Below, piece after piece: positions 2,188 to 33,754 of a stretch of DNA of 35,870 nucleotides (within the stretch, counting starts at the first letter, position 1; every line of letters starts with the position of its first letter). A program made the position numbers and the translations under genes. The notes beneath the pieces were generated by a model. That model did no database searches. It saw nothing but the letters and a program-made list of their open reading frames with translations, and was not told where the DNA came from. This stretch comes from Caldifarciminota bacterium. Its GTDB lineage: Bacteria > Hydrothermota > UBA3072. The stretch spans positions 1 through 35,870 of the forward strand of contig JAGLZA010000029.1 in the NCBI GenBank assembly GCA_023131835.1, read 5' to 3'.

Positions 2188-4347
2188 ATGCGTAAGTTTG
2201 TTTTGTTAGTGTTGGTTGTAGCAGTTGGATTGTGGGCTGCCAACGGAGTGTTGCTTGAATTAAGGCCTGCAGTTGGGAACGCTCCCAGTGAGTATCGTGT
2301 GGTTAAGTTCCCGGCACCAGATCAGCAACCCCATAGTTTCGGTTCACGAGACATTGGTGATGCTAATTATATTATCCAATATGATACCGAAAGCTGGGCA
2401 TACTATTGTCCACGTCCCTGTGAAGACTCAATGGTTGTCCGATTCGTCCCCCCGGCAGCATGTTCTCTTGTTGCTTTCACCTGGATTGGGTATAATGATG
2501 CCACAGGTGCAACGGGTCAACCCGTAGGTGTTTTTGCATCTTTGGCTAATCCCGGAGAAAATTTCAGCACCTACCCGGGAGTGGAAGAGTATCATACAGC
2601 TCCTCTTGTCCACCCCCTTGGGACTAATCTGTGGAATGGAACGACTTCTGCTCCTGGTAATATGGTATGGGATACTGTGAATATTCCTGCTGTTGAAGTG
2701 TGGGATAGCACCTTTTTCTGTGGCTACAGTGGTATAAACCCAGAAGATACAATAGCCTGCCTTGCTGAATCATGGATCCCTATGCCTGCTGTGATTGATA
2801 TACACACCTATCAGTATAATGGAGATGCTTTTGCAGTGGATTCCGGGGCCTGGTTCTGCTATTACTATACTGCTGATGATGAGGCTTTAGCATTTGGAAT
2901 AAGGGCTTATATAAAGGCCTATGAGGATGTCGCGCCTGTAGTAAGGGCAGAGGAACTTCCATATTCCTATACTACGGGTGCCCGGACAGTGAACATATAT
3001 GGACAGGATTTCAGTCCTGATTCCTGTGCTGTTATCAGGATGGACCTCCACTATGCAATAAATGCTGGAAGCTGGAATACATTATCATCTACCGTTCCCG
3101 TATCTGGTACTGTTGAAGAAGGAATCTGGGAGATAGATATCCCTGCGGTTGGTGTGGGCGATACAGTGGACTACTATGTTGTTGGCTGGGATGTTGCTAT
3201 TTCCACCCCTGAACTTTCATGTACCACTGCTACATATACTTACACAATTATGGCAGGAACCCCAGGTCACTTCCTATATGTGGATAATGATTATACAAAT
3301 GCTACTGCTCTTCCGGATCTCTATCTGGATATCATTGATGTCTGGGATCATGGCACCTATGGTTCACCGGATTCATCGGTTCTTTGCTTCTACACAACGG
3401 GTAATGATACACAAATGACCGTTGTCTGGAGAGACTGGGGATGTCTGGATTTAGGTCAGGGTGCAAACTATGGACTTGGTGGTGATGGAATCCGTCATTC
3501 TGATTCTACTTGGATTAAGTTGCTCCTTGATAACGGCGGTCACTTCTGGCTCTCTGATGAGGATCAGGGCTACGGTCTCGGTATCTGCCCGGGTTATGGA
3601 CAGCAAAGTGTTCCGGGAGGACACTGGGTAAGAGAATACCTCGGTATCCAGGGGATGTTTGATGACGGTCCACTTAGTGGAAGTGGAACAATACTCTATG
3701 GTGATCCGACTGATCCTGTTATCGGTGATCTATTCGGTGGTATTGGATATCAGACAGCGGGTCAGATCTATATTGCGCCTTATGCTCCCATAACCGGGAA
3801 CCTCAACTATGCCTATGTAGGTAATTATGACTCTCTACAGACTGGTGCTGTTATGAATATGTTTGATGCTGCTGGCCTGATACCATCATACAGATATGAA
3901 GGCCCAGGTGGTAGTGACTATAAAGTCTATAACGACTTCTGGCCATTTGATTATATCTGTAATCCAGCCGATTCAATGGAGATAGATGAAGTTGCCGTTG
4001 ACTCACTTGTCCAGGATGTTCTTGGCTGGTTCAATGTTGCCTCAGGTGTAACCGATAATACACTGGAGCCAGGGAAGGTTGTAGAACTCCTGCCAGTGAA
4101 CCCGGTAATAAGGGATGCGATGATTCGATTTTCCTTACCAACGAGGATGATGGCTACCCTTTCCATCTATGATAATACCGGTAGACTTATCAAGAATCTG
4201 GTTAATGGAATGAGGAATGCAGGTCTTAACACGGTTCGCTGGAATGGGAAAGACTCCGAAGGTAACTCTGTTGCCAATGGTGTCTATTTCTATCACCTGA
4301 GTGCCGATGGTAAGAACCTGTCCAATAAGATGGTGGTGGTCAGATAA
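2188..4347 (+). CDS. Secreted protein with C-terminal sorting domain
   Basis: A 719-residue protein with ATG 2188 after a strong AAAGGAGG ribosome site. The N-terminus is a typical Sec signal peptide (basic MRK, hydrophobic run, AANG cleavage region). The middle contains a segment beginning FLYVDND at ~residue 365, a form often seen at the start of secreted domains with glycine/aspartate-rich beta folds; no enzyme motif is recognised. The last ~85 residues are a FlgD-Ig-like sorting domain (TLSIYDNTGRLIKNLV, VRWNGKD, NGVYFYHLS, KMVVVR). The 3' end and the DNA after it closely resemble those of the peptidase gene ending at 11761, suggesting a shared or converted terminal module. Confidence 0.8.
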   Translation: MRKFVLLVLVVAVGLWAANGVLLELRPAVGNAPSEYRVVKFPAPDQQPHSFGSRDIGDANYIIQYDTESWAYYCPRPCEDSMVVRFVPPAACSLVAFTWIGYNDATGATGQPVGVFASLANPGENFSTYPGVEEYHTAPLVHPLGTNLWNGTTSAPGNMVWDTVNIPAVEVWDSTFFCGYSGINPEDTIACLAESWIPMPAVIDIHTYQYNGDAFAVDSGAWFCYYYTADDEALAFGIRAYIKAYEDVAPVVRAEELPYSYTTGARTVNIYGQDFSPDSCAVIRMDLHYAINAGSWNTLSSTVPVSGTVEEGIWEIDIPAVGVGDTVDYYVVGWDVAISTPELSCTTATYTYTIMAGTPGHFLYVDNDYTNATALPDLYLDIIDVWDHGTYGSPDSSVLCFYTTGNDTQMTVVWRDWGCLDLGQGANYGLGGDGIRHSDSTWIKLLLDNGGHFWLSDEDQGYGLGICPGYGQQSVPGGHWVREYLGIQGMFDDGPLSGSGTILYGDPTDPVIGDLFGGIGYQTAGQIYIAPYAPITGNLNYAYVGNYDSLQTGAVMNMFDAAGLIPSYRYEGPGGSDYKVYNDFWPFDYICNPADSMEIDEVAVDSLVQDVLGWFNVASGVTDNTLEPGKVVELLPVNPVIRDAMIRFSLPTRMMATLSIYDNTGRLIKNLVNGMRNAGLNTVRWNGKDSEGNSVANGVYFYHLSADGKNLSNKMVVVR

Positions 4348-4384
4348 TCCTATAGAAACGACAAATTGACATCTTTTTTTGAAG

Positions 4385-4417
4385 GGGGCGTTCTCATCGA
4401 ACGCCCCTTTCTTTTTT
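4385..4417 (+). terminator. Rho-independent terminator built from a palindrome
   Basis: The stem GGGGCGTTC / GAACGCCCC (4385-4393, 4399-4407) has a 5-base loop and is followed by TTTCTTTTTT. It lies 38 bp after the stop of the gene ending at 4347. It is the same kind of hairpin as the dispersed palindromes of this window, here with a degenerate left arm. Confidence 0.8.
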
Positions 4418-4934
4418 ACCCCTCCCCTCCCAGTTTATAGCCACGGTTCTTGCACGGTTTAATATTGAGTCGTGAGTCGAGAGTCATCAGTCGAAAGTCC
4501 CACCCAGAGCCCAAACCCGTTTTTGACACTGATTTTTTTACACCCCCCATCCCAATTTATGCCACGGTTTCTTCACGGTTTCCCTCCACCCCCTTTTTTT
4601 GTAGGGGCGAACTGCGTTCGCCCTTTTGTGGGAACGATTTTCCAATCGCGACTTTCCTGAAGTAGTTGCAATTCATGAATTGCCTCTACAAGTTTCGCGC
4701 CCTGGATGTAGGGGCAAGATACATCTTGCCCTCTTAGTAGGGGCGTTCAATTGAACGCCCCTACTAAATCCTTTTTCTCTCTTTCCTTCTATAAAAACAC
4801 AAAGAATATAACTTAAGGGTTCAAGGGGGGGTTCTCTCTTGAATTGCAAAATTTAAAGGGGTGGTGTTGGGCTTTGCGCTCTTTGCTCCCTTTGCGTGCT
4901 TTGCGAGAAAAAAGGAGGGGAATCAAAGTCACAC
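4418..4934. repeat. Gene-free repeat mosaic with several palindromes
   Basis: No convincing gene. Palindromes with the GTAGGGGC/GCCCCTAC arm pattern occur at 4601-4623 (core GAACTGCGTTC), 4662-4689 (core AATTCATGAATT), 4708-4733 (core AAGATACATCTT) and 4737-4764 (core GTTCAATTGAAC). A motif containing GCCACGGTT and CACGGTTT is repeated at about 4439-4461 and 4561-4581. Low-complexity phrases such as CTTTGCG repeats lie at 4870-4913. Parts of the block recur after the peptidase gene at 11820-11925. Open frames here are short and repeat-derived. Confidence 0.75.
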
Positions 4935-4962
4935 TTGACAACCAATCTATACACTCTATAAT
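4935..4962 (+). promoter_or_regulatory. Consensus sigma-70 promoter of the phosphotransacylase gene
   Basis: TTGACA at 4935-4940 and TATAAT at 4957-4962 are separated by 16 bp, a perfect match to both consensus boxes. Transcription would start near 4969, leaving a leader of about 88 bases that contains a palindrome (4976-5000) and a second hairpin (5014-5032) before the ribosome site. Confidence 0.8.
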
Positions 4963-4978
4963 TAGTTTATAGAGTGTA
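4950..4978. promoter_or_regulatory. Operator-like inverted repeat over the -10 box and start site
   Basis: TACACTCTATA at 4950-4960 is perfectly repeated in inverse at 4968-4978 with a 7-base spacer. It covers the -10 box and the predicted transcription start, the usual place for a repressor site. Its right arm shares three bases with the left arm of the palindrome at 4976-5000. A regulator is not identifiable. Confidence 0.5.
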
Positions 4979-5000
4979 GGGGCACGATGCCTCGTGCCCT
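4976..5000. repeat. Palindrome of the GTAGGGGC family in a 5' leader
   Basis: Arm GTAGGGGC is followed by core ACGATGCCTCGT and a shortened right arm GCCCTC. It lies in the untranslated leader of the phosphotransacylase gene, just downstream of the promoter. Confidence 0.75.
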
Positions 5001-5056
5001 CATTAAATTGTAAGAGCGGTTTCCGAAGCCGCTATATGATAAAGGAGGTTTTTAAA

Positions 5057-5941
5057 ATGATAAAAACAATGAAAGAATTAATCGAAAAAGCGAAAGAGAT
5101 AGGGCCAAAGACCTGTCTGGTAGCCGGGGCCTATAAAGAGAGCGAGATATTAGCAGCAAATAAAGCAAAAGAACTTGGAATCATTAAGCCTGTATTCGTT
5201 GGCGATCCGGAACTACCCGGGAGTTTTCCTGGGGTGCAACCAGATGATGTGATCCCTGAAACCGATCCGGGAAAAGCGGCTATCAAAGCGGTTCAATTGT
5301 GCTCTGAAGGAAAAGGGGATATCCTGCTGAAAGGGTCAGTCTCTACCTCTCAGTTCCTGAAACCAGTCCTTGATTCGGAATTCGGCTTAAAAGTAGCACA
5401 ATTATTGAGTCATATTGTTATTCTTGATATCCCTGAATTGGATAGGCTACTTGCCATAACAGACGGTGGTATGTGTATTGCGCCAAATCTTGATGAGAAG
5501 GTATCTATACTCAAAAATGGCATAAAATTTATGCATTCCCTGGGCAATGCAAAGCCAAAGGTTGGGATATTATCGGCGATAGAGGTTGTGAATCCAAAGA
5601 TAGAGAATACAATAGATGCCAGTATTATACAGAAGGCAGCAGAAAGGGGACAACTTGGAGATTGCATTGTTGATGGCCCACTTGCATTCGACCTTATGGT
5701 TTCTGATGAAGCCTGTAAAATAAAGGGGATTAAGAGTCCTACTTGCGGAAATGTTGATTTAATTCTCGCTCCTGATATTACCTGTGGAAATAGTATAGCA
5801 AAGGCACTCATCCATCTTGGAGGGGCTCAGGCGGCCGGGGCAATACTCGGGACAAAAAAACCTGTTGTAATGCTATCAAGGGCGGATAGAATGGAGACGA
5901 AACTAAACTCCATTGCCCTTGGTGTTGTCATTTCATCCTGA
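5057..5941 (+). CDS. ptb: Phosphate acyltransferase, phosphotransbutyrylase-like
   Basis: Transfers acyl groups between CoA and phosphate (acyl-CoA + Pi to acyl phosphate + CoA). Coupled to the kinase encoded at 12843 it would yield ATP. The 294-residue length and the C-terminal motif LSRADRMETKLNSIALG are typical of the Ptb branch of the PTA/PTB family; GDILLKGSVST and ADRMETKLNSIAL mark the active-site lobes. I chose ATG 5057 because AAAGGAGG lies eight bases upstream; an in-frame start at 4994 would add 21 residues encoded by a palindrome and hairpin. No butyrate kinase is adjacent, so the substrate (acetyl, butyryl or branched acyl) is unresolved. Confidence 0.85.
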   Translation: MIKTMKELIEKAKEIGPKTCLVAGAYKESEILAANKAKELGIIKPVFVGDPELPGSFPGVQPDDVIPETDPGKAAIKAVQLCSEGKGDILLKGSVSTSQFLKPVLDSEFGLKVAQLLSHIVILDIPELDRLLAITDGGMCIAPNLDEKVSILKNGIKFMHSLGNAKPKVGILSAIEVVNPKIENTIDASIIQKAAERGQLGDCIVDGPLAFDLMVSDEACKIKGIKSPTCGNVDLILAPDITCGNSIAKALIHLGGAQAAGAILGTKKPVVMLSRADRMETKLNSIALGVVISS

Positions 5942-5993
5942 GAATAAATTCTGGAATGATGCCGGATTATCTTTATGAATAATAGTGTTAACA

Positions 5994-6021
5994 GTAGGGG
6001 CGTATTGCAATACGCCCCTAC
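5994..6021. repeat. Palindrome just upstream of the RAYT gene
   Basis: A perfect 28-bp palindrome: arms GTAGGGGC/GCCCCTAC and core GTATTGCAATAC. It ends 15 bp before the transposase start and takes the place of a normal ribosome site. The same core, preceded by a related GTTARCA flank, occurs inside the transposase gene at 6320-6347. Confidence 0.9.
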
Positions 6022-6036
6022 AAGAGCGAAACATCC

Positions 6037-6639
6037 ATGAATAAAAAATACCATCGCCGTTCAATCAGATTAAAAAATTATGATTACTCCCAATCAGGCG
6101 CATATTTTGTAACAGTGTGTACCCACCAAAAGAAGCCATTTTTGGGTAATATCCTGAATGGAGTTATGAAAGTGAATAAATTTGGTAAAGCTGTAGAAAA
6201 AGAATGGCTAAAAACCCAGAAAATGAGAGAGAATGTTGAATTGGATGAATGTATAATTATGCCAAACCATTTTCACGGAATAATTGTGATTAAGGAGAAT
6301 AATGTTCAGGCTGTTAGCAGTAGGGGCGTATTGCAATACGCCCCTACCAATGGGCTTCAATCACCTTCTGAAACCATTGGTGCGATCGTTCGTGGTTTTA
6401 AATCTGCTGTAACAAAACGAATCAATGAATTACGAGGCAAATATGGGACGTCCGTTTGGCAGCGGAATTATTATGAACACATTATTAGAAATGATAAAGA
6501 GTTCAAATTGGTCCGGGAATATATTATCAACAATCCCTTACGGTGGCAATACGATCAAGAGAACCCTGATGGAAAACCCGATGAAAAAGAGAAAGAATTC
6601 TGGAGATTTTTACCTGATAATGTAGGGGCGTTCAATTGA
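6037..6639 (+). CDS. REP-associated tyrosine transposase (RAYT, Y1/HUH)
   Basis: A 200-residue single-strand DNA transposase of the IS200/REP-associated type, which in characterised relatives cuts and joins REP hairpins. Visible marks: N-terminal RRSIRLKNYDYSQSGAYFVTVCT, the HUH metal motif MPNHFHG at ~residue 75-81, the region WQRNYYEHIIRN holding the likely catalytic tyrosine, and a REYIINNPLRW tail. Three palindromes are tied to it: one 16 bp upstream, one inside the frame (6320-6347, encoding RGVLQYAPT) and one that supplies the stop codon (6622-6649). There is no clear Shine-Dalgarno site, so expression may be low. Length and motifs look intact. Confidence 0.88.
   Translation: MNKKYHRRSIRLKNYDYSQSGAYFVTVCTHQKKPFLGNILNGVMKVNKFGKAVEKEWLKTQKMRENVELDECIIMPNHFHGIIVIKENNVQAVSSRGVLQYAPTNGLQSPSETIGAIVRGFKSAVTKRINELRGKYGTSVWQRNYYEHIIRNDKEFKLVREYIINNPLRWQYDQENPDGKPDEKEKEFWRFLPDNVGAFN
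6320..6347. repeat. Palindrome inside the RAYT reading frame
   Basis: A perfect 28-bp copy with core GTATTGCAATAC, identical to the upstream copy at 5994-6021. It lies in the linker between the HUH motif and the tyrosine region and keeps the frame open. Confidence 0.9.
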
Positions 6640-6649
6640 ACGCCCCTAC
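6622..6649. repeat. Palindrome overlapping the RAYT stop codon
   Basis: A perfect 28-bp copy with core GTTCAATTGAAC. The TGA at 6637-6639 in the core ends the RAYT gene. It has the same core as 4737-4764 and ends 36 bp before the next gene, where it may act as a weak terminator. Confidence 0.88.
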
Positions 6650-6685
6650 AGGAACGATATTTGGTAGAAATAGGAGATAATTAGA

Positions 6686-8440
6686 ATGGTAAAAAGAGCG
6701 TTCCCTTTTCTATTTATACTCCTTCTTTGCTTACCATCTTGTTTTAGAGAGGTAAGGAAGAGCAAAGAAACAAGAATCGGAAAGATTACCTTTGAAGGTA
6801 ATAACTCAATACAGGGTAAAAAATTAAAGGATATCCTTCCTATCAAAGAGGGTGATCCATACATAGAGAGGTTTCAGAAGGAAGGTGTGCAAAGAATCAT
6901 TAATTTGTATAGAAGAAAGGGTTTTTTTGATATGAGGATAAAGAGGACAGAGGGAGAATTCTTAAAAGAACAAAATGAGATTAGATTGACCTACTATATA
7001 TTTGAGGGACTACGGAGCAGGATAGATAGCATTTCCATTGAAGGCAATTCTCTTTTTACCATTCAACAGATCAAGGAAATATTAGGTATTGATAGAGGAG
7101 ATTACTATGATGAAGCTGTTATTGAATTGGGGGAATATACAATCTCAAAACTGTATGCAGAGAAGGGATATGCCAATGCTATTATCAGGGTTCATAGAAC
7201 TACTCCGGATAGTCATCCTGGTTCCGGAGTAATATTGAGAATTGAGATAAACGAAGGGGATAAGGTCTGGGTGAGGGATATATCGATTAAAGGATTAGAG
7301 GGAGTTAGAACTGCAGTAGTCATGCGGGAGATGCGTATAAAAGAAGGTGACCTCTTTCGCCCCTCACATGTCTATGAATCGCAGAGTAGATTATACAGAA
7401 CCGGATTATTCTCTGATATAGATATTCAGGAGAAAAAGGTATCTGATGATTCGGTTGACCTTAGATTTCAGTTGAAAGAAGAAAAACCACGATTCATAGA
7501 GTTTGGTTTTGGATATGAGTCACCTGAGAAGGCTATATTTCTGTTGCGCTGGGGAGACCTTAACCTCTTCGGGAATCTACAAAGATTATTTATAGACTTC
7601 TCATTTGCGGCAAACCCTGAGTTTGAACACTGGGAAGATATCAGATTAACATACAGGGAATCGTATCTGTTCAATTCGGGATTCTCGCTCATTGCTTCTC
7701 CTGCTCTGAAAAGGGTATCTGAAAAAGAATACTGGCAATCCGATATCTCTTTTGATCTTGCCCTCCAGAGGTATATTGGCTTCAGAAAACAATTGTTTTT
7801 CCTTTATGATTTCAGGAGATCTGCTATTCAGGAGGTTCCCAATATCACCAATAGTTTTAGTATCCGTTACTATTATGAAGGGAGAGACAATATCATAATC
7901 CCTGAAAAGGGACTATATGTCCTCTCACAGATTGAATATGCAGGTGGAATCCTTGGGGGTGATAACCATTTTGATCGTTTGAAATTGGATATTGCCCTAT
8001 ATCATTCCCTCCCCTTTAGAACTGTAGCAGCAGTAAGGTCGCTCATAGTTTTTACAAGACCAAGAGAAGAACCTGAAGATATAAGCACAGATGCCAGGTT
8101 GGAGATGGGGGGGTATAAGACAATACGTGGTTTTGAGGAAGCCTCAATCGGGGTTTCTGATGTCAGAGGCAAGAAGAGCGGACTTGATCTATTATTGTTG
8201 AATCTCGAATTCAGGATTCCTGTGTATAAGAAGCTATTTGCCATTCTTTTTGCAGATATCGGCAACCTCTGGATGGATTACTCGGATATATCATTAATGA
8301 ATCCTCATATTGGGGGTGGTTTTGGACTTGGCTATCTGACACCTATAGGTGTCATCCGTCTGGATTATGCACGGGCATTTGAGAAGATGCCTGACGATTA
8401 TAGGGGTAAGATATATCTCAACTTCGCCCATCCGTTCTAA
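6686..8440 (+). CDS. Omp85-family outer membrane protein, TamA-like
   Basis: A 584-residue protein with three POTRA domains (about residues 30-110, 111-190 and 191-268; each has an [IV]xxIxxEG(N) strand and a helix pair such as IINLYRRKGFF). A C-terminal 16-strand-type barrel follows, with TIRGFEE (the VRGF/Y loop motif) near residue 470 and a terminal phenylalanine. Such proteins insert beta-barrels or translocate proteins at the outer membrane. Three POTRAs and this length fit TamA rather than five-POTRA BamA. The signal region ends LPSC, so the protein may be lipidated at Cys20, which is unusual; proline at -2 makes this uncertain. ATG 6686 follows a GGAG site. Confidence 0.83.
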   Translation: MVKRAFPFLFILLLCLPSCFREVRKSKETRIGKITFEGNNSIQGKKLKDILPIKEGDPYIERFQKEGVQRIINLYRRKGFFDMRIKRTEGEFLKEQNEIRLTYYIFEGLRSRIDSISIEGNSLFTIQQIKEILGIDRGDYYDEAVIELGEYTISKLYAEKGYANAIIRVHRTTPDSHPGSGVILRIEINEGDKVWVRDISIKGLEGVRTAVVMREMRIKEGDLFRPSHVYESQSRLYRTGLFSDIDIQEKKVSDDSVDLRFQLKEEKPRFIEFGFGYESPEKAIFLLRWGDLNLFGNLQRLFIDFSFAANPEFEHWEDIRLTYRESYLFNSGFSLIASPALKRVSEKEYWQSDISFDLALQRYIGFRKQLFFLYDFRRSAIQEVPNITNSFSIRYYYEGRDNIIIPEKGLYVLSQIEYAGGILGGDNHFDRLKLDIALYHSLPFRTVAAVRSLIVFTRPREEPEDISTDARLEMGGYKTIRGFEEASIGVSDVRGKKSGLDLLLLNLEFRIPVYKKLFAILFADIGNLWMDYSDISLMNPHIGGGFGLGYLTPIGVIRLDYARAFEKMPDDYRGKIYLNFAHPF

Positions 8441-8991
8441 CCACCGTATAACTGGTAGAAATTCCAAACCAATCCTTATCACCTTCTATTTGCCACAGAG
8501 AACACAAAGGAAGAATAGTTAAGTGGTTGAATGGGAGAATAGTTAAATAGTAAGGGCGAACTGCGTTCGCCCTTTTGTAGGAGGGTTTCCAAACAGTGAT
8601 AATCGCGACTTACGAAGTCGCTCCTACAAGAAATTAATGTAGGAGTCAGGTTACCTGACCCATTAGGGCAAGGCATGCCTTGCCACTACCTTTTGGACTT
8701 GCCCCGTGAAATGTTTACTATTTAATGGGGCGACTCAACGAGTCGTCCTACAAAACAGAATTCTCTTTGCAGACTTTATATTCCTTTGCTCGCTTTGCGA
8801 GAAAAATGGGAGGTGGTGGGGTAAAAACAAAACATTTATCTTCTTTGTACCCTTTGTGACTTTGTGGTGAAATAAAGGGGGAAGGGTAGTGTGCTCTCTT
8901 TTCTCACGAATTGCAAAAATCAGGGATGGTGAGGGGCTTCGTGACCTTTGTGACTTTGTGGTGAAATAAAGGGGGTGGGGAATCCCTCCTA
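8441..8991. repeat. Gene-free repeat-rich region
   Basis: No gene seen. Contents: a composite repeat at 8513-8661 (listed separately), palindromes TAGGGCAAGG...CCTTGCCACTA at 8664-8688 and GGGGCGACTC...GAGTCGTCCTAC at 8727-8751, and a perfect 31-bp direct repeat (8851-8881 and 8945-8975, CCTTTGTGACTTTGTGGTGA...). The stretch 8910-8966 recurs in inverted orientation at 24499-24557. Confidence 0.75.
8513..8661. repeat. Composite repeat, copy 1 (three palindromic modules)
   Basis: About 149 bp with a near copy at 33391-33539. Module order: a palindrome with core GAACTGCGTTC (8550-8572), a larger structure with outer arms GTAGGAG/GCTCCTAC enclosing two hairpins (8577-8627), then a GTCAGG/CCTGAC hairpin (8639-8661). 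The spacers GAATAGTTAA and AAGAAATTAATGTAG are shared with copy 2. This copy has decayed stems in the first inner hairpin. Confidence 0.8.
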
Positions 8992-9019
8992 TTGACAATC
9001 CACCAGAATTTGCTATTAT
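8992..9019 (+). promoter_or_regulatory. Sigma-70 promoter of the papain-like peptidase gene
   Basis: TTGACA at 8992-8997, 16-bp spacer, TATTAT at 9014-9019. The predicted start near 9026 gives a ~36-base leader ending in AAAGGAGG before ATG 9062. Confidence 0.7.
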
Positions 9020-9061
9020 CTTATTGTAATTTTTAGGTTAATCTTTAATAAAGGAGGCTTT

Positions 9062-11761
9062 ATGTTCAAGAGAGTATTGGTGTTCGGACTTTTTATCTTA
9101 TCTGTCTCTCCCCTCTATGCACAGAAATACAGGATGGGCTATCAGCATATAGACCCCAGGACCGTTCCCTGGATGAAAGAGGTATCCCTTGAAGTAACCC
9201 GTCAGGTTCGTGACTCGGTGGATCACTCACACGGTATGCCACCTGTTGGTTGGCAATATCTGGGTAGTTGCTCAGCCTTTTCTACTGGTTATTACTACAA
9301 AGCCTATCAGGAATATGTTGATCACGGTGGATGGGATATGACAGATTCAGATCATCAATTTCATCAAAAATTCATCTATAACCAGATAAATGGTGGAGTA
9401 GATGGTGGATCAAATGTTGCTGATGCGATGAAATGTCTCTGCGATTTAGGGATTGCACCGATGTCATCCGTTTCTTATGCGGATTACGACTCAGTAACGT
9501 GGCCATCAGAACAAGGATACAACGATGCAATAGCCTTTCGATCCGATGAATCGTTTTCTCTTAATGTTAGCAATGATGCAGGGATTCTGGCTCTAAAGGA
9601 CCATATGTCAAACGATAATGATTGTGCGGTGATAGCAATCTATGTATGGTCTCCATTCTATTATAATACCCTTGGTCCCAATCATATCTATGATACAGGA
9701 GATGCAACAGGCACTATGTGGGGCGGACATGCCATTTGCCTCGTTGGTTATAACGACTCTCTTGATACCCCGGATGGAAAAGGTGCTTTCAGACTTGTTA
9801 ATTCCTGGGGAACTGGATGGGGAGATGCTGGATACGCCTGGATTACATATGCAGCTGTAAAGAGTTCCAGCATATGTTATGGAACTGCCTACTGGACTAC
9901 CGATAGAAGAAACTATCAACCTAACGCAAAGATTGCCTATCAGGTATCTCACAATGAACGGTTAGATGTCTATGTTAATGTTGGAATAGGTCCTTATGGT
10001 TCTCCACATTGGCAGCGCACATTCTTGAATTGGGCGCATGCTAAAGTGCGTCAATATCCCTGCCCAGCTCATCCTATAATCCTTGACATTACCGAAGGAG
10101 AGGAGTTCCTTTCTCCTTATACAGAGAATACTGTTTTCATAAAAGTGAGGGATACTGAAAGTGATGGAGTTATCGGCGTAGTGCAGGATTTCTCTGCTCT
10201 GAGTAATGAATGGGGTTTTCACTGCCCGTATCCGGATACACCTGTGGTTATGGCAGATTGGGGATATACCAACTTGGCTCAATCCTTCCCAAATAATAAA
10301 TGTAACTGGCAGTCCTTCCATCGCCTGCCTGATAATTCCGGGGCTATTGATTTAGTTGGCGATATGGATTCATCTGTTGTTCTCTGGACATTCCCTACCA
10401 GCGATTCCATAGTATCTTCTCCGATTATAGCGGATATAGATGGGGATAATACACTCGATATTGTTGTTGGTTCCTATAATGATACGGTATATGCAATTGA
10501 TGCAAATGGGACAGATATATGGAAATATTGTATGACTGGAAATGTAATCGGCTCACCAGCCACTGCTGATCTGGATGAGGATGGAAAATTAGAGGTTGTT
10601 GTTTCGTCTGACAATAAAGAGATAGTGTGTTTGAATGGGGAGAATGGCTCTTTTAATTGGTCCTATACCAGTTTCATAAATGGCGTTTCTGGTTCTCCTG
10701 CTATAAATTCTGTTGACAGCGATAGAAGATTAGAGGTCGTAGGGGTTGGGTTGTTTATGCGGTTGATAAATGGTGAAGATGGCTCAGCAGGAGCCTGGCT
10801 TTATATGAATGGAGCACCTTCGACATCTTCACCAGCGGTTGGAGATGTCTTTGATGCTGACGGTATCCCGGATATTGTTGTTGGGAACCAGGCTGGTTCG
10901 GTAAAATTCTTCAATGGTAAGAATGGCGATGTAGTAGGTAATTTTCTGACTAATGGTCCAGTCCTTTCTTCTCCTGCCATTGGAGACCTTGATGGGGATT
11001 CATTAAACGAGGTGGTGGTAGGTTCCAATGATGATACATTATATGCCTTACAACTGGGACTGGATTCTATTCTGTGGAAATATGGAACCGGCGGTGATGT
11101 TCAATCATCTCCGGCCCTCGGTGATATAGATGGGGATTCAAAACTTGAGGTAGTCTTTGGTTCCAATGATGGGTATATATATGCTCTTAATGCAGAAGAC
11201 GGGAGTTTTTGCTGGTCATATTCTACCGGGGGAGAGGTTATTTCCTCTCCTGCACTCGGTGATATAGATAGTAATGGAGTGATTGATGTTGTTGTTGGTT
11301 CAAAAGATGGATACCTCTATTGTCTCTCTGGTGCAGGCGTTCTCTTATGGAGACTCAATCTCGGAACCCCAATTACCTCCTCACCTGCTTTAGGTGATGT
11401 TGATAAGGATGGATACCTTGAGATAGTAGTTGGTGGATTGGATGGTAATATTTATCTCATTGATGGTGTTTCTACTGGTATTGGGGAAGAAGAGATAAAG
11501 GGAAGATTATCGCTTTCAAGACTCTCTGGGCCAGTATCAGGCGAGTTTGTTATCCAGTATGGTATCTCAGGAAGGACTATGGTTGACCTCTCAATATTCG
11601 ATATCTCAGGGAGAGAAGTAAAGACCATTGTGAATAGGATTCAGGATGTTGGATTATATCAGGTGAAGGTAAATCTTGATAATGTTGCCAATGGTGTCTA
11701 TTTCTACCGCCTGAGTGCTGGTGATAAAAATCTATCCAGAAAGATGGTGGTGGTGAGGTAA
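9062..11761 (+). CDS. Secreted C1A (papain-family) peptidase with FG-GAP/PQQ-like propeller and sorting domain
   Basis: An 899-residue protein. A Sec signal peptide (residues 1-20, ending LYAQ) precedes a papain-type domain: Cys70 in GSCSAFS, His223 in GGHAICLVGY and Asn247 in NSWGTGWGDAGYAW. Gln65 is a candidate oxyanion residue. From ~residue 435 come about eight repeats with calcium-loop-like D-D-G-D signatures (DIDGDNTLDIVVGS, DLDGDSLNEVVVGS, DIDGDSKLEVVFGS), which should close a beta-propeller. The last ~80 residues are the FlgD-Ig-like sorting domain ending KMVVVR. The likely role is extracellular or surface proteolysis, with the propeller for binding. It has its own promoter and a palindrome terminator. 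Confidence 0.87.
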   Translation: MFKRVLVFGLFILSVSPLYAQKYRMGYQHIDPRTVPWMKEVSLEVTRQVRDSVDHSHGMPPVGWQYLGSCSAFSTGYYYKAYQEYVDHGGWDMTDSDHQFHQKFIYNQINGGVDGGSNVADAMKCLCDLGIAPMSSVSYADYDSVTWPSEQGYNDAIAFRSDESFSLNVSNDAGILALKDHMSNDNDCAVIAIYVWSPFYYNTLGPNHIYDTGDATGTMWGGHAICLVGYNDSLDTPDGKGAFRLVNSWGTGWGDAGYAWITYAAVKSSSICYGTAYWTTDRRNYQPNAKIAYQVSHNERLDVYVNVGIGPYGSPHWQRTFLNWAHAKVRQYPCPAHPIILDITEGEEFLSPYTENTVFIKVRDTESDGVIGVVQDFSALSNEWGFHCPYPDTPVVMADWGYTNLAQSFPNNKCNWQSFHRLPDNSGAIDLVGDMDSSVVLWTFPTSDSIVSSPIIADIDGDNTLDIVVGSYNDTVYAIDANGTDIWKYCMTGNVIGSPATADLDEDGKLEVVVSSDNKEIVCLNGENGSFNWSYTSFINGVSGSPAINSVDSDRRLEVVGVGLFMRLINGEDGSAGAWLYMNGAPSTSSPAVGDVFDADGIPDIVVGNQAGSVKFFNGKNGDVVGNFLTNGPVLSSPAIGDLDGDSLNEVVVGSNDDTLYALQLGLDSILWKYGTGGDVQSSPALGDIDGDSKLEVVFGSNDGYIYALNAEDGSFCWSYSTGGEVISSPALGDIDSNGVIDVVVGSKDGYLYCLSGAGVLLWRLNLGTPITSSPALGDVDKDGYLEIVVGGLDGNIYLIDGVSTGIGEEEIKGRLSLSRLSGPVSGEFVIQYGISGRTMVDLSIFDISGREVKTIVNRIQDVGLYQVKVNLDNVANGVYFYRLSAGDKNLSRKMVVVR

Positions 11762-11793
11762 TCCTTTAGAAGTGATAAATTGGCATTTTCTTT

Positions 11794-11830
11794 GTAGGGG
11801 CGTATAGCAATACGCCCCTTTCTTTTTTAC
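11794..11830 (+). terminator. Palindrome used as rho-independent terminator
   Basis: Arms GTAGGGGC/GCCCC with core GTATAGCAATAC (11794-11819), followed by TTTCTTTTTT. It lies 32 bp after the peptidase stop. Flanks match those of the terminator at 4385-4417, but the core differs. Confidence 0.8.
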
Positions 11831-12400
11831 CCCTCCCATCCCAGTTCATAGCCACGGTTTCTTCACGGTTTTTGTAGGGGCGAACTGCGTTCGCCCTTTT
11901 GTGGAAACGATTTTCCAATCGCGATAACGGAGTAGCGAAACTTGTTTCGCGCCCTGTAGTGGCAACCCTTGCTGTTACCATCTGTAGGAGTGGGCTTCTG
12001 CCCACGATTGTCAATTGTAGGAGCACGGAGCTCCGTGCCCCTGCAATCGAGCCCAGAAGGGCTTTCCCACTAACCGAACTAACCCACCAACTGACCAACA
12101 CATTAATTTCTCTGCGTTTATCCGCGGTTGATAAATGGTGGTGGGAATGGTGGATTTTGACAATCAGTTCAATCTGTGTCTATTTTCTGGGTGGTGTGTT
12201 TTTTTTATCAAAAATTAACCGTGAGTTTGCCGTGGCTAATCTTTGGTGGTGTGTGTTTTTTACAAAAAAAAACAATTCTTCTCTGTGCCCTCTGTGTCTC
12301 TGTGACTAATCCCTTCCTACAAAGTAAAAATTTCTTTCTCTGTGTTCTCTGTGTCTCTGTGGCTAATAAAAGGTCGGGTGTGGGAAGCTTCATAAAGGGC
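11831..12400. repeat. Gene-free repeat mosaic upstream of ndk
   Basis: No gene seen. Palindromes: 11874-11896 (core GAACTGCGTTC), an AGCGAAAC/GTTTCGC hairpin at 11934-11950, 11984-12005 (GTAGGAG, TGGGC/GCCCA stem) and 12017-12044 (core ACGGAGCTCCGT). The stretch 11831-11925 copies the region after 4408. From 12100 on the DNA is T-rich, with repeated CTCTGTG phrases at 12283-12310 and 12335-12368. Confidence 0.75.
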
Positions 12401-12843: not shown

Positions 12844-14105
12844 TGTTGATACTTACCATAAACTGTGGTAGTTCCTCACTTAAATATCTCTTATACGATT
12901 GGGATAAGAAGACTTCTATGGCAAGTGGAATTGTGGAGAGAGTTACCATCAGTGATTCCTTTATTAAACATACAAGGATAGGAACAGAGGAAGTTAAGAT
13001 AGAAAGGGAATGTCCGACTCATAAGGAAGCGATGGGATTGGTGATGGGGGTCCTGACCGATAAAGAGGTTGGAGTGATTGAGGATCTTTCTGAGATAGAC
13101 GCAGTTGGACATCGGGTTGTTCATGGGGGAGAAAGATTCACCTCTTCGGTTCGCATTGATAAAATGGTCCTTGAAACCTTTAAGGAACTCTATGACCTTG
13201 CCCCGCTCCATAACCCCCCTAATGTGATGGGGATTGAAGCAGCTATGGAGCTGCTACCCGATGTTCCACATATCGCTGTAATGGATACAGCCTTTCATCA
13301 GACGATGCCGAAAGAATCCTATATCTATGCTATTCCCTATCAGTGGTATGAGGATTATATGGTTCGCAAATATGGATTTCATGGAACGTCCCATCTCTAT
13401 GTTTCCTACAGGGCGGCTGTCTTACTCAAGAAAAAGATTGAAGATACAAATCTTATCACCTGCCACATTGGTAATGGTGTGAGTCTCACTGCAATCAAGA
13501 ACGGAAAATCCTATGACCATTCAATGGGATTTACCCCTCTTGAAGGATTGGTAATGGGGACGAGATCAGGTGATATAGACCCTGCAGTGGTTGAATATAT
13601 ATGCAATAAAGAAAACAAGAATGTATCCGAGGTAATAAATAGTCTAAATAGGAAGAGCGGTTTGCTGGGTATATCAGAGAAATGGACAGATCGTCGTGAT
13701 ATTGAACGGGAGATGGAAGGGGGTGATAAGCGCGCAGAACTTGCTTTTAATAAGGAGGTTCATCGGTTAAAGAAATATATAGGTGCATATATTGCAATAC
13801 TTGGATTCGTTGATGCAGTAGTATTTACAGCCGGAGCAGGTGAGAAGGGGCCAGAGTTAAGGGAGGCTGTTTGCTCTAATATGGAACGGCTTGGACTGAA
13901 ACTGGATCGGGAGAGAAACTCAAAGTCAAGAGGTAAAAAAGAATCCATAATCTCTACTGATGATTCTCCGATAAAGCTCTTTGTTATTCCTACCAATGAA
14001 GAGATAGTTTTTGTTGAGGATGTGGTAGGTATTCTTAAAGGAGAATATGAATCTCCTGAGACATTCAAATATTCCTTTGCTTCACCTGATTATAAAGCCA
14101 TGTAG
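12843..14105 (+). CDS. ackA: Acetate kinase
   Basis: Makes ATP and acetate from acetyl phosphate and ADP (reversible), the last step of acetate fermentation. The 420 residues carry the ASKHA-fold marks: NCGSSSLKY at the N-terminus, HRVVHGGE, HNPPN, MDTAFHQTMP, YGFHGTSH, CHIGNGVSLTAI, GFTPLEGLVMGTRSGDIDP and FTAGAGEKGPELRE. ATG 12843 (one-base overlap with ndk) is preferred over a TTG one codon earlier. Acyl phosphate may come from the phosphotransacylase at 5057, which is not adjacent. The TAG stop lies inside the left arm of a palindrome (14102-14127), so that insertion may have changed the original C-terminus. Confidence 0.93.
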   Translation: MLILTINCGSSSLKYLLYDWDKKTSMASGIVERVTISDSFIKHTRIGTEEVKIERECPTHKEAMGLVMGVLTDKEVGVIEDLSEIDAVGHRVVHGGERFTSSVRIDKMVLETFKELYDLAPLHNPPNVMGIEAAMELLPDVPHIAVMDTAFHQTMPKESYIYAIPYQWYEDYMVRKYGFHGTSHLYVSYRAAVLLKKKIEDTNLITCHIGNGVSLTAIKNGKSYDHSMGFTPLEGLVMGTRSGDIDPAVVEYICNKENKNVSEVINSLNRKSGLLGISEKWTDRRDIEREMEGGDKRAELAFNKEVHRLKKYIGAYIAILGFVDAVVFTAGAGEKGPELREAVCSNMERLGLKLDRERNSKSRGKKESIISTDDSPIKLFVIPTNEEIVFVEDVVGILKGEYESPETFKYSFASPDYKAM

Positions 14106-14127
14106 GGGCAATTCACGAATTGCCTGG
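14102..14127. repeat. Palindrome at the ackA 3' end
   Basis: Arm GTAGGGGC with core AATTCACGAATT and a decayed right arm GCCTGG. It provides the ackA stop codon and sits 7 bp from the 3' end of the RAYT pseudogene on the other strand. Confidence 0.8.
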
Positions 14128-14133
14128 TGGGGT

Positions 14134-14708
14134 TTATCTGAATTTTTCCCAGAATTCTTTCTCAAATTCATCAGGTTCCCCTACAGGATTTTCCTTATCA
14201 AATTCCCATTTTAATGGATTCATAATAATATATTCTCTAACACGGTTTAGTTCATCATCGTTTCTAATAATGCGATCGTAATAATTGCGTTGGTAGACAG
14301 ATACGCCCTCTGTATTGCGTAACCGATTAATCTTCTTTGCAGTGTTCATTTTGTAGAAGCCTATTATTTTGGATATTAACATTTTACGGCGTTCTTTCCG
14401 CAGTAATAAGATACTATGTGGTAGGGGCAATTCGTGAATTGCCCCTACCATTAATATCACATGTATATGATTTGGCATTACTGCCAATTTGTCCAATTGT
14501 ACTCTATTAAAACGTTCTGGTATTTCAAACCAGAATTCTTGCGCAATTTTGCCAAATGGTGACAGTTCAACAATACCATCTTTTACTTCACCAAAGATAC
14601 ATTCCCTGTTTTTGTGCAGATTGTGATAAAATATGCACCACTCTCCGAATAATCATAATTTTCTAATCTTAAATGACGCCTGAATTGTTTATCGCATTTA
14701 TATTCCAT
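14134..14708 (-). pseudogene. RAYT transposase interrupted by one frameshift
   Basis: Read on the minus strand from ATG 14708, the protein begins MEYKCDKQFRRHLRLENYDY and SESGAYFITICTK, a normal RAYT start, then hits a stop 41 codons in. Inserting one base in the A5 run (T5 on the + strand, 14609-14613) restores a continuous frame through CIFGEVKDGIV to MPNHIHVILMV (HUH motif), VYQRNYYDRIIRN (tyrosine region) and REYIIMNPLKWEFD, ending at 14134, about 191 residues. The remaining ORF downstream of the break lacks the N-terminal strand. A homopolymer sequencing or assembly error is an alternative to true decay. It contains a palindrome in frame (14421-14448) and is flanked by two more. Confidence 0.85.
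14421..14448. repeat. Palindrome inside the second RAYT gene
   Basis: A perfect-arm copy with core AATTCGTGAATT. It is read in frame as VGAIHELPLP directly after the HUH segment, the same relative position as in the first RAYT gene. Confidence 0.9.
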
Positions 14709-14723
14709 TTAAGCGTTATTTTG

Positions 14724-17657
14724 CTATTCTTTCATTCTATTTAAGAAGTCCTGTAGGGGCAATCCATGAATTGCCCCTACTTTAACAACGGAATGAAATT
14801 CCTTTTCTTCTCCATTAAGTGTAGTTGTGGTACCGGAACGTGCATAATAAGGTGCAGGAATTACTGCATAATCATAATCTCCACTTTTAGGATTCCCTAT
14901 GAATATGGAAATTCCATCCTGTCCCTTCCATTCTGACAGGGCCAGTTTTGAAATCCCAAGACTATTCATCTTTCGAGGAATAACAAGGGTTTTGCCTTCA
15001 TAAGAGTCATTTTTATGGACTATTGATAGGGTTTGGGAATCGCCTTTTTCAACCAAACAGGATCCATTATTAACTGCTTTTCTAATCAATGCTTTTATGG
15101 GTGGATGTACATCCAGAGCGATATCAGCCCATATCCTTTCTGCTTTCAATATATCCTTAATGTCGGCATTCCCCTTACCTATTTTTTCTTCTATATATAT
15201 ACCAATATTTGGGTTTTCTGCATATTCTTTCAATTTCTCTGCTTCTTCTGTAAAGAGGTCACCTGAGAGTATAATGGATATATTTCTTTCCTCTTCGATA
15301 AGAGAAACGATTCTATCAAGTGAAACCGGGGTGCCCTTTCCATCCTTATAATGAAAATATCCGGGATTATAATCGTGCAGTAGTTTATATCTTCCTCGTT
15401 CACAGAGGATACCCATATTCCATTCACCATCCGGTGTTTCAACCCTTAATAGTTCTCCATTGTGTACTCTAAGATGAACGGGACAGCCAAGACCACACTC
15501 TCCGCAGGTTACTTGTATGGTTTTCATTGGATAAGGTCCTGATTTTTCCGTTGGTTTCTTATCCTCCAGTGCTCCGGTAGGGCATACATTCACACAACCT
15601 CCACAACTGATACAATCCAGTTTCGCTTCGAAGGGTGGTTCTATTAAGGTTGCGAATCCCCTGTTCACGAAGTCAATAGCATATTCCCCGAGTATTTCAT
15701 TACATTCGTTAACACATCTGCCGCATAGGATGCATTTACTCTGGTCGCGTATGATATATTTATGACGGTCATCCGCCCTATAACGGATGAGTTCTCCCTT
15801 AAATCGGTATTGGTCGGTTTTGTATATACTGGAAAACTCCCTCAGTTTACATTCAAACAATGCATCGCATCCACAGGAGATACATCTCTTTGCTTCCTCT
15901 ACTGCTTCTTCCTGTGAGAATGTTGACTCTATAAGATTAAAGTCTTTGCTTCTTTCTTCAGGGTTCCTGATATTTACCTTGATTCGCTCACTCTTTTCGT
16001 ATATCTCAAAATCCCATTCGTCAACTTCCTTTTCATGATTATATGGTTCAATACTCAGGAGTGTATCCAGAAGTTCTGGATCAGATTCAATCTCCTGAAT
16101 CCAGTTCCACGGTTCCTGAATCACTTTCCTGATTGTTTCTAATTTATTATTCAAATAGAGGTCTATGGCATGCGTTGCTCTGTCTGCCTGCGCACAACTT
16201 TCAACCACAGTGGCGGGTCCCAGAACAATATCACCACCTGCAAAGATATTTGGCTTGTTGGTATTCTGAAAATATTCACCAGCGTTAATCCATGTTTTTC
16301 CACAATCTATTCCATATTCTTTTATCTCTTCAATATCCCCGTATTGACCAATAGCCATTACCAAAGAATCGGTTTCCATCTCATATTCAGAACCCTGGAT
16401 GGGTACAGGGCGCCTTCGGCCGGATTCATCCGGTTCGCCAAGTTCCATTTTGATACACCTAATACCTTCTGCTCTTCCATTGCCCAATATCGCTGTTATA
16501 TTGGTAAGTGTGCGGAATTCTATTCCTTCTTCTTCTGTTTCCTTTAATTCTATTTCATCGGCAGGCATTTCATTCCTGCTTCTCCTATATAGAATAGTAA
16601 CATCAGAGCCTAATCGCTTTGCAGTTCTTGCTACATCCATTGCAGTATTACCCCCACCAATAACTGTTACCTTTTTACCCAGATTTACTTCTTTATTTGT
16701 TGCAATTGAATGGAGGAAAACTATCCCTGTATAGACCCCTTCAAGATTCTCTCCCTCTATACCCATAACCCTGTCCTTCCAGGCGCCTGTGGCTATGAAT
16801 ACTGCATCGTAATTTTTACTCAATTCCTCAAGGGATATATCTTTCCCAAGTTTGGTCGAATATTTAACATCAATTCCACCTATAGAGAGAGCAAGTTCTA
16901 TTTCTCTATCCAGGATTGCCTTTGGCAGGCGAAACTCAGGTATTCCATACCGGAGCATTCCTCCCAATTTATCCTGGGCTTCATAGATGGTTATTCTGTA
17001 CCCTTTTTTTCGTAATTGATAGGCTGCCGTTAGACCTGCTGGTCCTCCACCCACAATGGCGATCCTTTCACTTCTTTCTTCTGCAACCTCCGGGACATAA
17101 GGGTTGTCGGATTTCATATCGAATTCAGCGACTGCCTTTTTTAGCAATCTAATAGCTATGGATTCTTCAACCTTTTGTCTCCTGCATTCATCCTCACAGA
17201 AGGCAGGACAGACTGCTCCGAGTGAATAAGCAACTGGAGTGCTACCCTTTATTACCTGTAGTGCCTCTCTTGGTTTTCCATCTGCAATAAGAGCCACATA
17301 GGTGGGGACATCATAGTGAAGGGGGCAGGCTTTTTTACATGGCCCAATGCAGTCTCCGTAGTGTTCGGAAAGCAGGAGTTCAAGATTGATTTTTCTGGAT
17401 TCAATAACTTCTTCTGTGTCGGTCTTAATCTCCATTCCATCCTGAACATAAGTGGTGCAGGAAGTTTCTACTCTCTTCTTTCCATCTCTTTCAATCTCGA
17501 CCAGACACATTCGGCAGGAGCCATAGGGTTCGAGTATTTCTTCTTCGCAGAGAGCCGGAATGTATATATCGTTTTCTCTGCAAATTTCAAGTACGGTTTT
17601 CCCCTTTTCTGCTTGCATATTTTTACCATTTATCGTAATATTAACTTTTTCACTCAT
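14724..17657 (-). CDS. NuoG/NfnB-like fusion: Fe-S and FAD/NAD(P)H oxidoreductase subunit
   Basis: A 977-residue multi-cofactor subunit. Order: [2Fe-2S] ferredoxin (Cys37, 48, 51, 67); a His-Cys cluster region (His99, Cys103, 107, 111) merging into a GltD/NfnB N-terminal Fe-S pair (CPAFCEDEC); FAD fold (VGGGPAGLTAAYQL); NAD(P)H fold (VIGGGNTAMDVA with the YRRSRNEMP motif typical of NADPH-using GltD); CISCGC and two [4Fe-4S] motifs (CILCGRCVNEC, CISCGGCVNVC); then a molybdopterin-oxidoreductase-type Fe4S4 motif (CGECGLGC). About 235 residues follow, too few for a complete Mo-pterin domain. There is no H-cluster. It overlaps the NuoF-like gene by 8 bp and likely forms a soluble complex with it; transhydrogenation or electron bifurcation is inference. 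A palindrome encodes residues 960-969. Confidence 0.8.
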   Translation of the reverse strand: MSEKVNITINGKNMQAEKGKTVLEICRENDIYIPALCEEEILEPYGSCRMCLVEIERDGKKRVETSCTTYVQDGMEIKTDTEEVIESRKINLELLLSEHYGDCIGPCKKACPLHYDVPTYVALIADGKPREALQVIKGSTPVAYSLGAVCPAFCEDECRRQKVEESIAIRLLKKAVAEFDMKSDNPYVPEVAEERSERIAIVGGGPAGLTAAYQLRKKGYRITIYEAQDKLGGMLRYGIPEFRLPKAILDREIELALSIGGIDVKYSTKLGKDISLEELSKNYDAVFIATGAWKDRVMGIEGENLEGVYTGIVFLHSIATNKEVNLGKKVTVIGGGNTAMDVARTAKRLGSDVTILYRRSRNEMPADEIELKETEEEGIEFRTLTNITAILGNGRAEGIRCIKMELGEPDESGRRRPVPIQGSEYEMETDSLVMAIGQYGDIEEIKEYGIDCGKTWINAGEYFQNTNKPNIFAGGDIVLGPATVVESCAQADRATHAIDLYLNNKLETIRKVIQEPWNWIQEIESDPELLDTLLSIEPYNHEKEVDEWDFEIYEKSERIKVNIRNPEERSKDFNLIESTFSQEEAVEEAKRCISCGCDALFECKLREFSSIYKTDQYRFKGELIRYRADDRHKYIIRDQSKCILCGRCVNECNEILGEYAIDFVNRGFATLIEPPFEAKLDCISCGGCVNVCPTGALEDKKPTEKSGPYPMKTIQVTCGECGLGCPVHLRVHNGELLRVETPDGEWNMGILCERGRYKLLHDYNPGYFHYKDGKGTPVSLDRIVSLIEEERNISIILSGDLFTEEAEKLKEYAENPNIGIYIEEKIGKGNADIKDILKAERIWADIALDVHPPIKALIRKAVNNGSCLVEKGDSQTLSIVHKNDSYEGKTLVIPRKMNSLGISKLALSEWKGQDGISIFIGNPKSGDYDYAVIPAPYYARSGTTTTLNGEEKEFHSVVKVGAIHGLPLQDFLNRMKE
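14753..14780. repeat. Palindrome inside the 3' coding end of the NuoG/NfnB-like gene
   Basis: Arms GTAGGGGC/GCCCCTAC with core AATCCATGAATT (one mismatch). It is read in frame on the minus strand as VGAIHGLPLQ, eight residues before the stop. Confidence 0.9.
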
Positions 17658-33364: not shown

Positions 33365-33754
33365 GAGATAGTCGCTTCGCTCCAATTGAGGAATAGTTAA
33401 ATGGTTGAATAGGAAAATAGTTAAATAGTAGGGGCGAACTGCGTTCGCCCGTTGTAGGAGCGGTTTCCAAACCGCGATAATCGCGACTTAAGAAGTCGCT
33501 CCTACAAGAAATTAATGTAGGGGTCAGGTTCCCTGACCCGATAGTTGGATTTTGCGTTCATCTGTGTTTAAATTCCTGGGTTTGGAGATGGGTTCTTTAA
33601 ATCAGTTTTAATTAGTGCAAATCTGTGTCAAATAAATAAGGGGTCAAGGGTTCGAGGTTAAGAAAAAAACCGTGCAGGAACCGTGGCTAAAAATAGGTGG
33701 AGGTGGGAGTAATTTTGCATTTTGCATTTTTCATTGGAGCGAAGCGACTATCTC
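33365..33754. repeat. 22-bp perfect inverted repeat bracketing 346 bp
   Basis: The segment 33365-33386 (starting GAGATAGTCGCTTCGC) is repeated exactly in inverse at 33733-33754. Between them lie the composite palindrome repeat and other repeat phrases; no coding capacity is evident. Confidence 0.7.
33391..33539. repeat. Composite repeat, copy 2 (well-preserved)
   Basis: Near copy of 8513-8661. Modules: 33428-33450 (arm GTAGGGGC, core GAACTGCGTTC); 33454-33505 with outer arms GTAGGAGC/GCTCCTAC enclosing hairpins GCGGTTT-CC-AAACCGC (33460-33475) and GCGACTT-AAG-AAGTCGC (33483-33499), which could fold as a three-way junction; and 33517-33539 with GGGTCAGG/CCTGACCC arms. Spacers match copy 1. 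Confidence 0.82.

Follow-up and report, generated by a model that had tools for sequence, protein, structure and literature searches.

Different REP cores between similar flanks at two terminators of a Caldifarciminota genome, consistent with exchange of the core in place

Two terminators of a Caldifarciminota bacterium have similar flanks and hairpins with different cores, and we consider it probable that the REP core at one of them, B or A, was replaced in place by the core of another REP while flanks and feet stayed. Because we found no intermediates between the two core types, GTTC and GTAT, and because empty slots were rare, in-place exchange through the shared arms was the best reading of the data, and these mobile hairpins seem able to swap centres without moving. 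The window, by which we mean the whole 35,870-nt stretch of DNA analysed, contains both terminators together with genes for RAYT-like enzymes, transposases of the kind believed to spread such hairpins. A reading of the sequence without database searches had proposed the exchange of one palindromic core for another, and this part of it was supported at A and B and at other slots; it had not recognised the hairpins as GTAG REPs associated with RAYTs.

Gene A (2188-4347, forward strand) codes for a 719-aa protein with a FlgD-Ig/CHU_C-type C-terminal domain and gene B (9062-11761, forward strand) for an 899-aa papain-like protein with FG-GAP repeats and a Por-type sorting tail, both genes ending where the sequence-only reading had placed their ends. 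The similarity it had described on either side of the hairpins was recovered as a match of 4269-4460 in A to 11683-11871 in B with 83% identity (E=4.9e-48). The left shared flank (4269..4380 in A, 11683..11793 in B, forward strand) combines the 3′ end of each gene with post-stop DNA, and showed 67 identities over the final 79 coding bases and 28/36 from the stop as far as the hairpin. The right shared flank (4408..4460 and 11819..11871, forward strand), composed of a T-run and a dispersed CCCCTCCC...CCACGGTT repeat, was identical at 48 of 53 positions, a higher identity than on the left (p=0.006). From ACCCCTCCC to CACGGTTT this flank consists of a dispersed repeat of which the genome has more than 20 copies, so that the right-hand similarity alone is weak evidence; among the copies retrieved, the junction CGCCCCTTTCTTTTTTACCCC occurred at A and B only. 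A second shared module beginning with GTAGGGGCGAACTGCGTTCGCCC (4596..4651 in A, 11869..11924 in B, forward strand; 55/56 identical) is reached in A only past an additional segment of ~122 bp. The dispersed repeat with TAGCCACGGTTTCTTCACGGTTT occurs in the window at 11819-11871 and 33665-33707, and most of its genome copies have no adjoining palindrome.

The hairpin at terminator A (4381..4411, forward strand) has a 13-bp stem and a 5-nt loop (-24.1 kcal/mol, z -7.0) with the core GTTCTCATCGAAC at 4390-4402, exactly as first located. Terminator B carries the REP GTAGGGGC-GTATAGCAATAC-GCCCC (11794..11818, forward strand; -17.3 kcal/mol, z -4.5), whose core lies at 11802-11813, one base from the position 11801-11812 originally given. 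The central observation, GTTCTCATCGAAC in A against GTATAGCAATAC in B between alike flanks, thus held. The left foot is GAAG in A, where it pairs with CTTTC of the right flank and lengthens the stem to 13 bp, and GTAG in B and in a paralogous site, C. Both A and B have TTTC at the right end, running on from the arm as GCCCC-TTTC, instead of the CTAC foot that marks double-foot REPs and is found in C and in most REPs of the window. Each is a single hairpin rather than a member of a close inverted pair of REPs as in REPINs. A terminator scan and folding showed a GC-rich hairpin with a T-run after it at both sites, the form shared by intrinsic (rho-independent) terminators, from which these differ in that the hairpin comes from a mobile-repeat family. 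The predicted role of both hairpins is probably intrinsic termination, and since termination rests on the stem and the T-run, a new core would be tolerated.

Both hairpins probably belong to a large family of GTAG-tagged "double-foot" REP palindromes, of which an intact example, GTAGGGGCGTTCAATTGAACGCCCCTAC, lies at 4737..4764. Hairpins with this tag occupied about 320 (323) places in 1.18 Mb of stretches, a biased sample mostly picked for palindromes and repeats, and hairpins accompanied 431 of 6742 GTAG sites compared with 7-90 for eight other tetranucleotides. Most of these REPs have near-constant outer arms, GTAGGGGC and GCCCCTAC, i.e. GCCCC(TAC) on the right, around variable cores of several classes. 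The GTTC and GTAT classes differ at two arm positions per side and in the loop, and in none of the 99 GT-type elements did arms of the GTTC class go with loops of the GTAT type, or GTAT arms with GTTC loops. Intermediates linking the two cores by point changes, which had been named in advance as one observation that would speak against exchange, were therefore lacking among these elements. The conversion of one core into the other by paired point changes draws on a few one-step core derivatives, such as GTTTAATTAAAC in one copy, and on small paired differences between closely related RAYTs; given the number of positions that would have to change together and the absence of mixed elements, we disfavour it as very improbable. 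Local hyper-divergence of cores was modest, with 21% at ≤50% identity compared with 12% of control segments (~1.8-fold).

The direction of change was suggested by paralogue C on contig C119, whose left flank and core, GTTCTCATTGAAC with both feet intact (GTAG and CTAC), are those of A and whose right flank is different. The 5-nt-loop GTTC core, GTTC-N5-GAAC, was found at six loci only in the genome, and because C shares this rare core with A, parsimony places the change in B: judged from these sequences, A and C probably inherited the core and B is the changed copy. The same comparison bears on an explanation without any core replacement, in which A arose at a single recombination junction, with a left part and core like those of C fused to a right part like that of B. 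Crossing over at the palindrome can account for A's likeness to C on its left side and to B on its right, and it agrees with the closer similarity of the right flanks. One-sided homology with a different core was also common in the genome (432 pairs on the left, 307 on the right), and two copies of a dispersed repeat, L212 and L156, have identical left modules and different right ones. However, B and C are alike up to the palindrome (29/36 identities) and still differ in their cores, so that a crossover leaves one core change unexplained; in addition, alignment ends were barely enriched at palindromes (8.8% versus 7.8%; 7.8% versus 5.3% in unique bins), giving little sign that palindromes act as general breakpoints. 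A recombination junction explains part of the A/B pattern and a crossover of this one-sided kind may have contributed, whereas we regard a junction as the whole explanation as rather unlikely. The different right flank of C, the higher identity on the right and the partly repetitive nature of the right flank count against the cleanly two-sided replacement at A and B that had first been pictured. The coding ends showed a pattern of their own: gene B (window 11683-11761) is like genes A, C and D in the last 26 codons only, which looks like a swap of the sorting-tail end among unrelated genes; D, a fourth paralogue, has nothing beyond the gene tail in common with the others.

Exchange at a fixed position was also supported by a dispersed ~240-bp repeat with a central palindrome slot. 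Among its 18 members, 12 had GTTC-type cores, four had GTAT, one was empty (L229) and one decayed. The GTAT members did not form one clade on the tree of the flanks, and a single change was rejected (AU p=6.9e-5) on a tree with low support that recombination may disturb and with a test group named after the alignment; the joint, left and right trees implied three core changes each. An all-against-all comparison revealed more pairs with homologous flanks on either side and different cores, and the outer arm was kept in 11 of 12 both-flank swaps compared with about 47% of one-sided pairs, although pairs within a slot are not independent and the genome contains only about five independent swap slots. 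The 240-bp repeat itself (L211-L240, e.g. L156:15060-15278) ends in CTACCCCCC...GGGGGGTAG with GTAG outward and resembles a miniature inverted-repeat element.

These slots also allow another alternative to be weighed: that two different REPs inserted independently at one and the same target in two empty copies of a terminator region. REPs are thought to be mobile, the base before GTAG was T in 54% of copies, and the empty 240-bp repeat provides one unoccupied site. On the other hand, empty slots were rare (1/18 repeats and 6/81 RAYT genes lacking a palindrome), the genome yielded no empty site of the A/B type, and both hairpins share the right junction GCCCC-TTTC. Independent insertion is hence unlikely, and alike flanks with different hairpins need not imply it.

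Core exchange in place was further suggested by the RAYT genes. The window encodes a RAYT/TnpAREP-like Y1 transposase (6037..6639, forward strand; PF01797, 25.2 bits at a cut-off of 23), whose product shows the motifs MPNHFH (HUH) and NYYEHI (Tyr) and has an in-frame REP between them. This internal REP (6320..6347), translated as RGVLQYAPT, has a GTAT core, as does the REP upstream of the gene (5994..6021); the REP at the 3′ end (6622..6649) has a GTTC core and provides the stop codon after DNVGAFN. A second RAYT-like ORF on the reverse strand (14134..14496; PF01797, 25.0 bits, same cut-off) contains an AATTC-core REP (14421..14448; GAIHELPL) and is flanked by another with the same core (14102..14129) and by a REP at 14753..14780, which forms an in-frame part of the 3′ end of ORF 14724-17657 (redox enzyme-like) and adds GAIHGLPLQ to it. 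Among the genome's Y1 transposases, the five with the best Pfam matches had no GTAG palindromes near them and are probably not the relevant enzymes.

We compared 81 RAYT genes belonging to many phyla (80 GTDB homologues and the window gene); in 75 of them the stretch from HUH to Tyr contained a palindrome, at a median of 48 nt past HUH. Its arms were mostly constant, and 51 distinct cores were counted. The three frames of GTAG in this slot were used 38, 24 and 0 times, the frame reading TAG being the one never used. In 29 of 40 RAYT loci the inside core equalled a flanking core, against 2.45 expected by shuffling. The closest homologue (L268, Candidatus Stahlbacteria, 63% identical), compared at the sequence level, has GTTCAATTGAAC where the window RAYT has GTATTGCAATAC, while both take their stop codon from a 3′-end GTTC REP, indicating that the RAYT slot, too, alternates between GTTC and GTAT, the classes that distinguish A from B. 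The slot sequence was identical in a relative of the same class (L098) and a WOR-3 genome (L272), a match that suggests a host within WOR-3/Stahlbacteria. Variable cores in the slot were also present in isolate genomes, e.g. Thermus and Desulfacinum, which bears on the explanation that wrong repeats were joined in assembling this metagenome-derived genome. The assembly is fragmented (537 contigs) and repeat-rich; A and B nevertheless lie on one contig, and the swap pattern recurred at several loci and in other assemblies, making assembly error highly improbable.

If cores are exchanged in place, the breakpoints would fall within the shared arms or where these end, keeping feet and flanks and changing the centre, as in a conversion between REP copies via these arms. 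TnpAREP enzymes cleave REPs between C and T on either side and carry out strand transfer in vitro (PMC8266576). By analogy, one route would be RAYT/TnpAREP cleavage between C and T beside the stem followed by strand transfer, with RAYT as the putative catalyst; a second would be template switching or gene conversion. The step from C to T directly before GTAG was found in 31 of 256 copies, somewhat more than at adjacent positions, and the GCCCC-TTTC junction of A and B is compatible with such a cut and equally with recombination inside the arm. Work by Higgins in 1988 reportedly proposed, to go by its title, that REPs evolve by gene conversion, with reference to enterobacterial REPs. A more speculative reading, which we consider less likely than not, is that REP cores are exchangeable cassettes: RAYT would cut the shared feet and swap the core, its own in-frame copy would be rewritten together with the flanking copies to give a lineage-matched core, and the A/B terminators would be by-products at host genes.

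REPs inside RAYTs and switches of REP class have already been published. Double-foot REPs of TnpAREP subclass 2.4 flank tnpAREP and sit in frame inside it between HuH and Y (Quentin et al. 2018, PMC6006769). They share with the REPs described here a GTAG foot answered by its complement at the opposite end (in C and in most REPs of the window), a long stem and in-gene copies, a likeness of REP form, position and motifs rather than phylogeny; the accessible part of that paper reports their presence and, unlike the present analysis, says nothing of cores being exchanged, either at a fixed slot or at ordinary terminators. In the "orthoswitch" (Nunvar et al. 2013, PMC3686654), different REP classes occupy homologous positions by a mechanism that its authors call unknown; it concerns REPs flanking orthologous RAYT genes of Pseudomonas and Stenotrophomonas, whereas the present cases lie at terminators, within a dispersed repeat and in the coding slot of RAYT genes. 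GTAG-tagged families with stem-loops downstream of genes and intragenic copies were described by Di Nocera et al. (2013, PMC3733652), including a case in Xanthomonas recB where distinct REPs occupy roughly the same position; the portion of that account available to us defines classes by stem and loop, proposes no exchange mechanism and does not name WOR-3 or Stahlbacteria. Core exchange at ordinary terminators did not appear in the REP literature examined, part of it in partial text, and a literature search by arm sequence returned nothing relevant. Constant flanks and arms with alternative cores, at host terminators as in the RAYT slot, make REP-class change at fixed positions testable.

At strictly orthologous sites no core swap was seen among the genomes compared, which were sister genera and included no congener: in G004 the orthologue of gene B is followed at its end by AGGGGCGTTCAAAAGGGCGCCCC, a GTTC-like hairpin with unalignable flanks, and that of G003 has no hairpin. 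A related genus (G001, contigs C171, C93 and C35) has intergenic dispersed repeats in common with the window at 89-91% identity.
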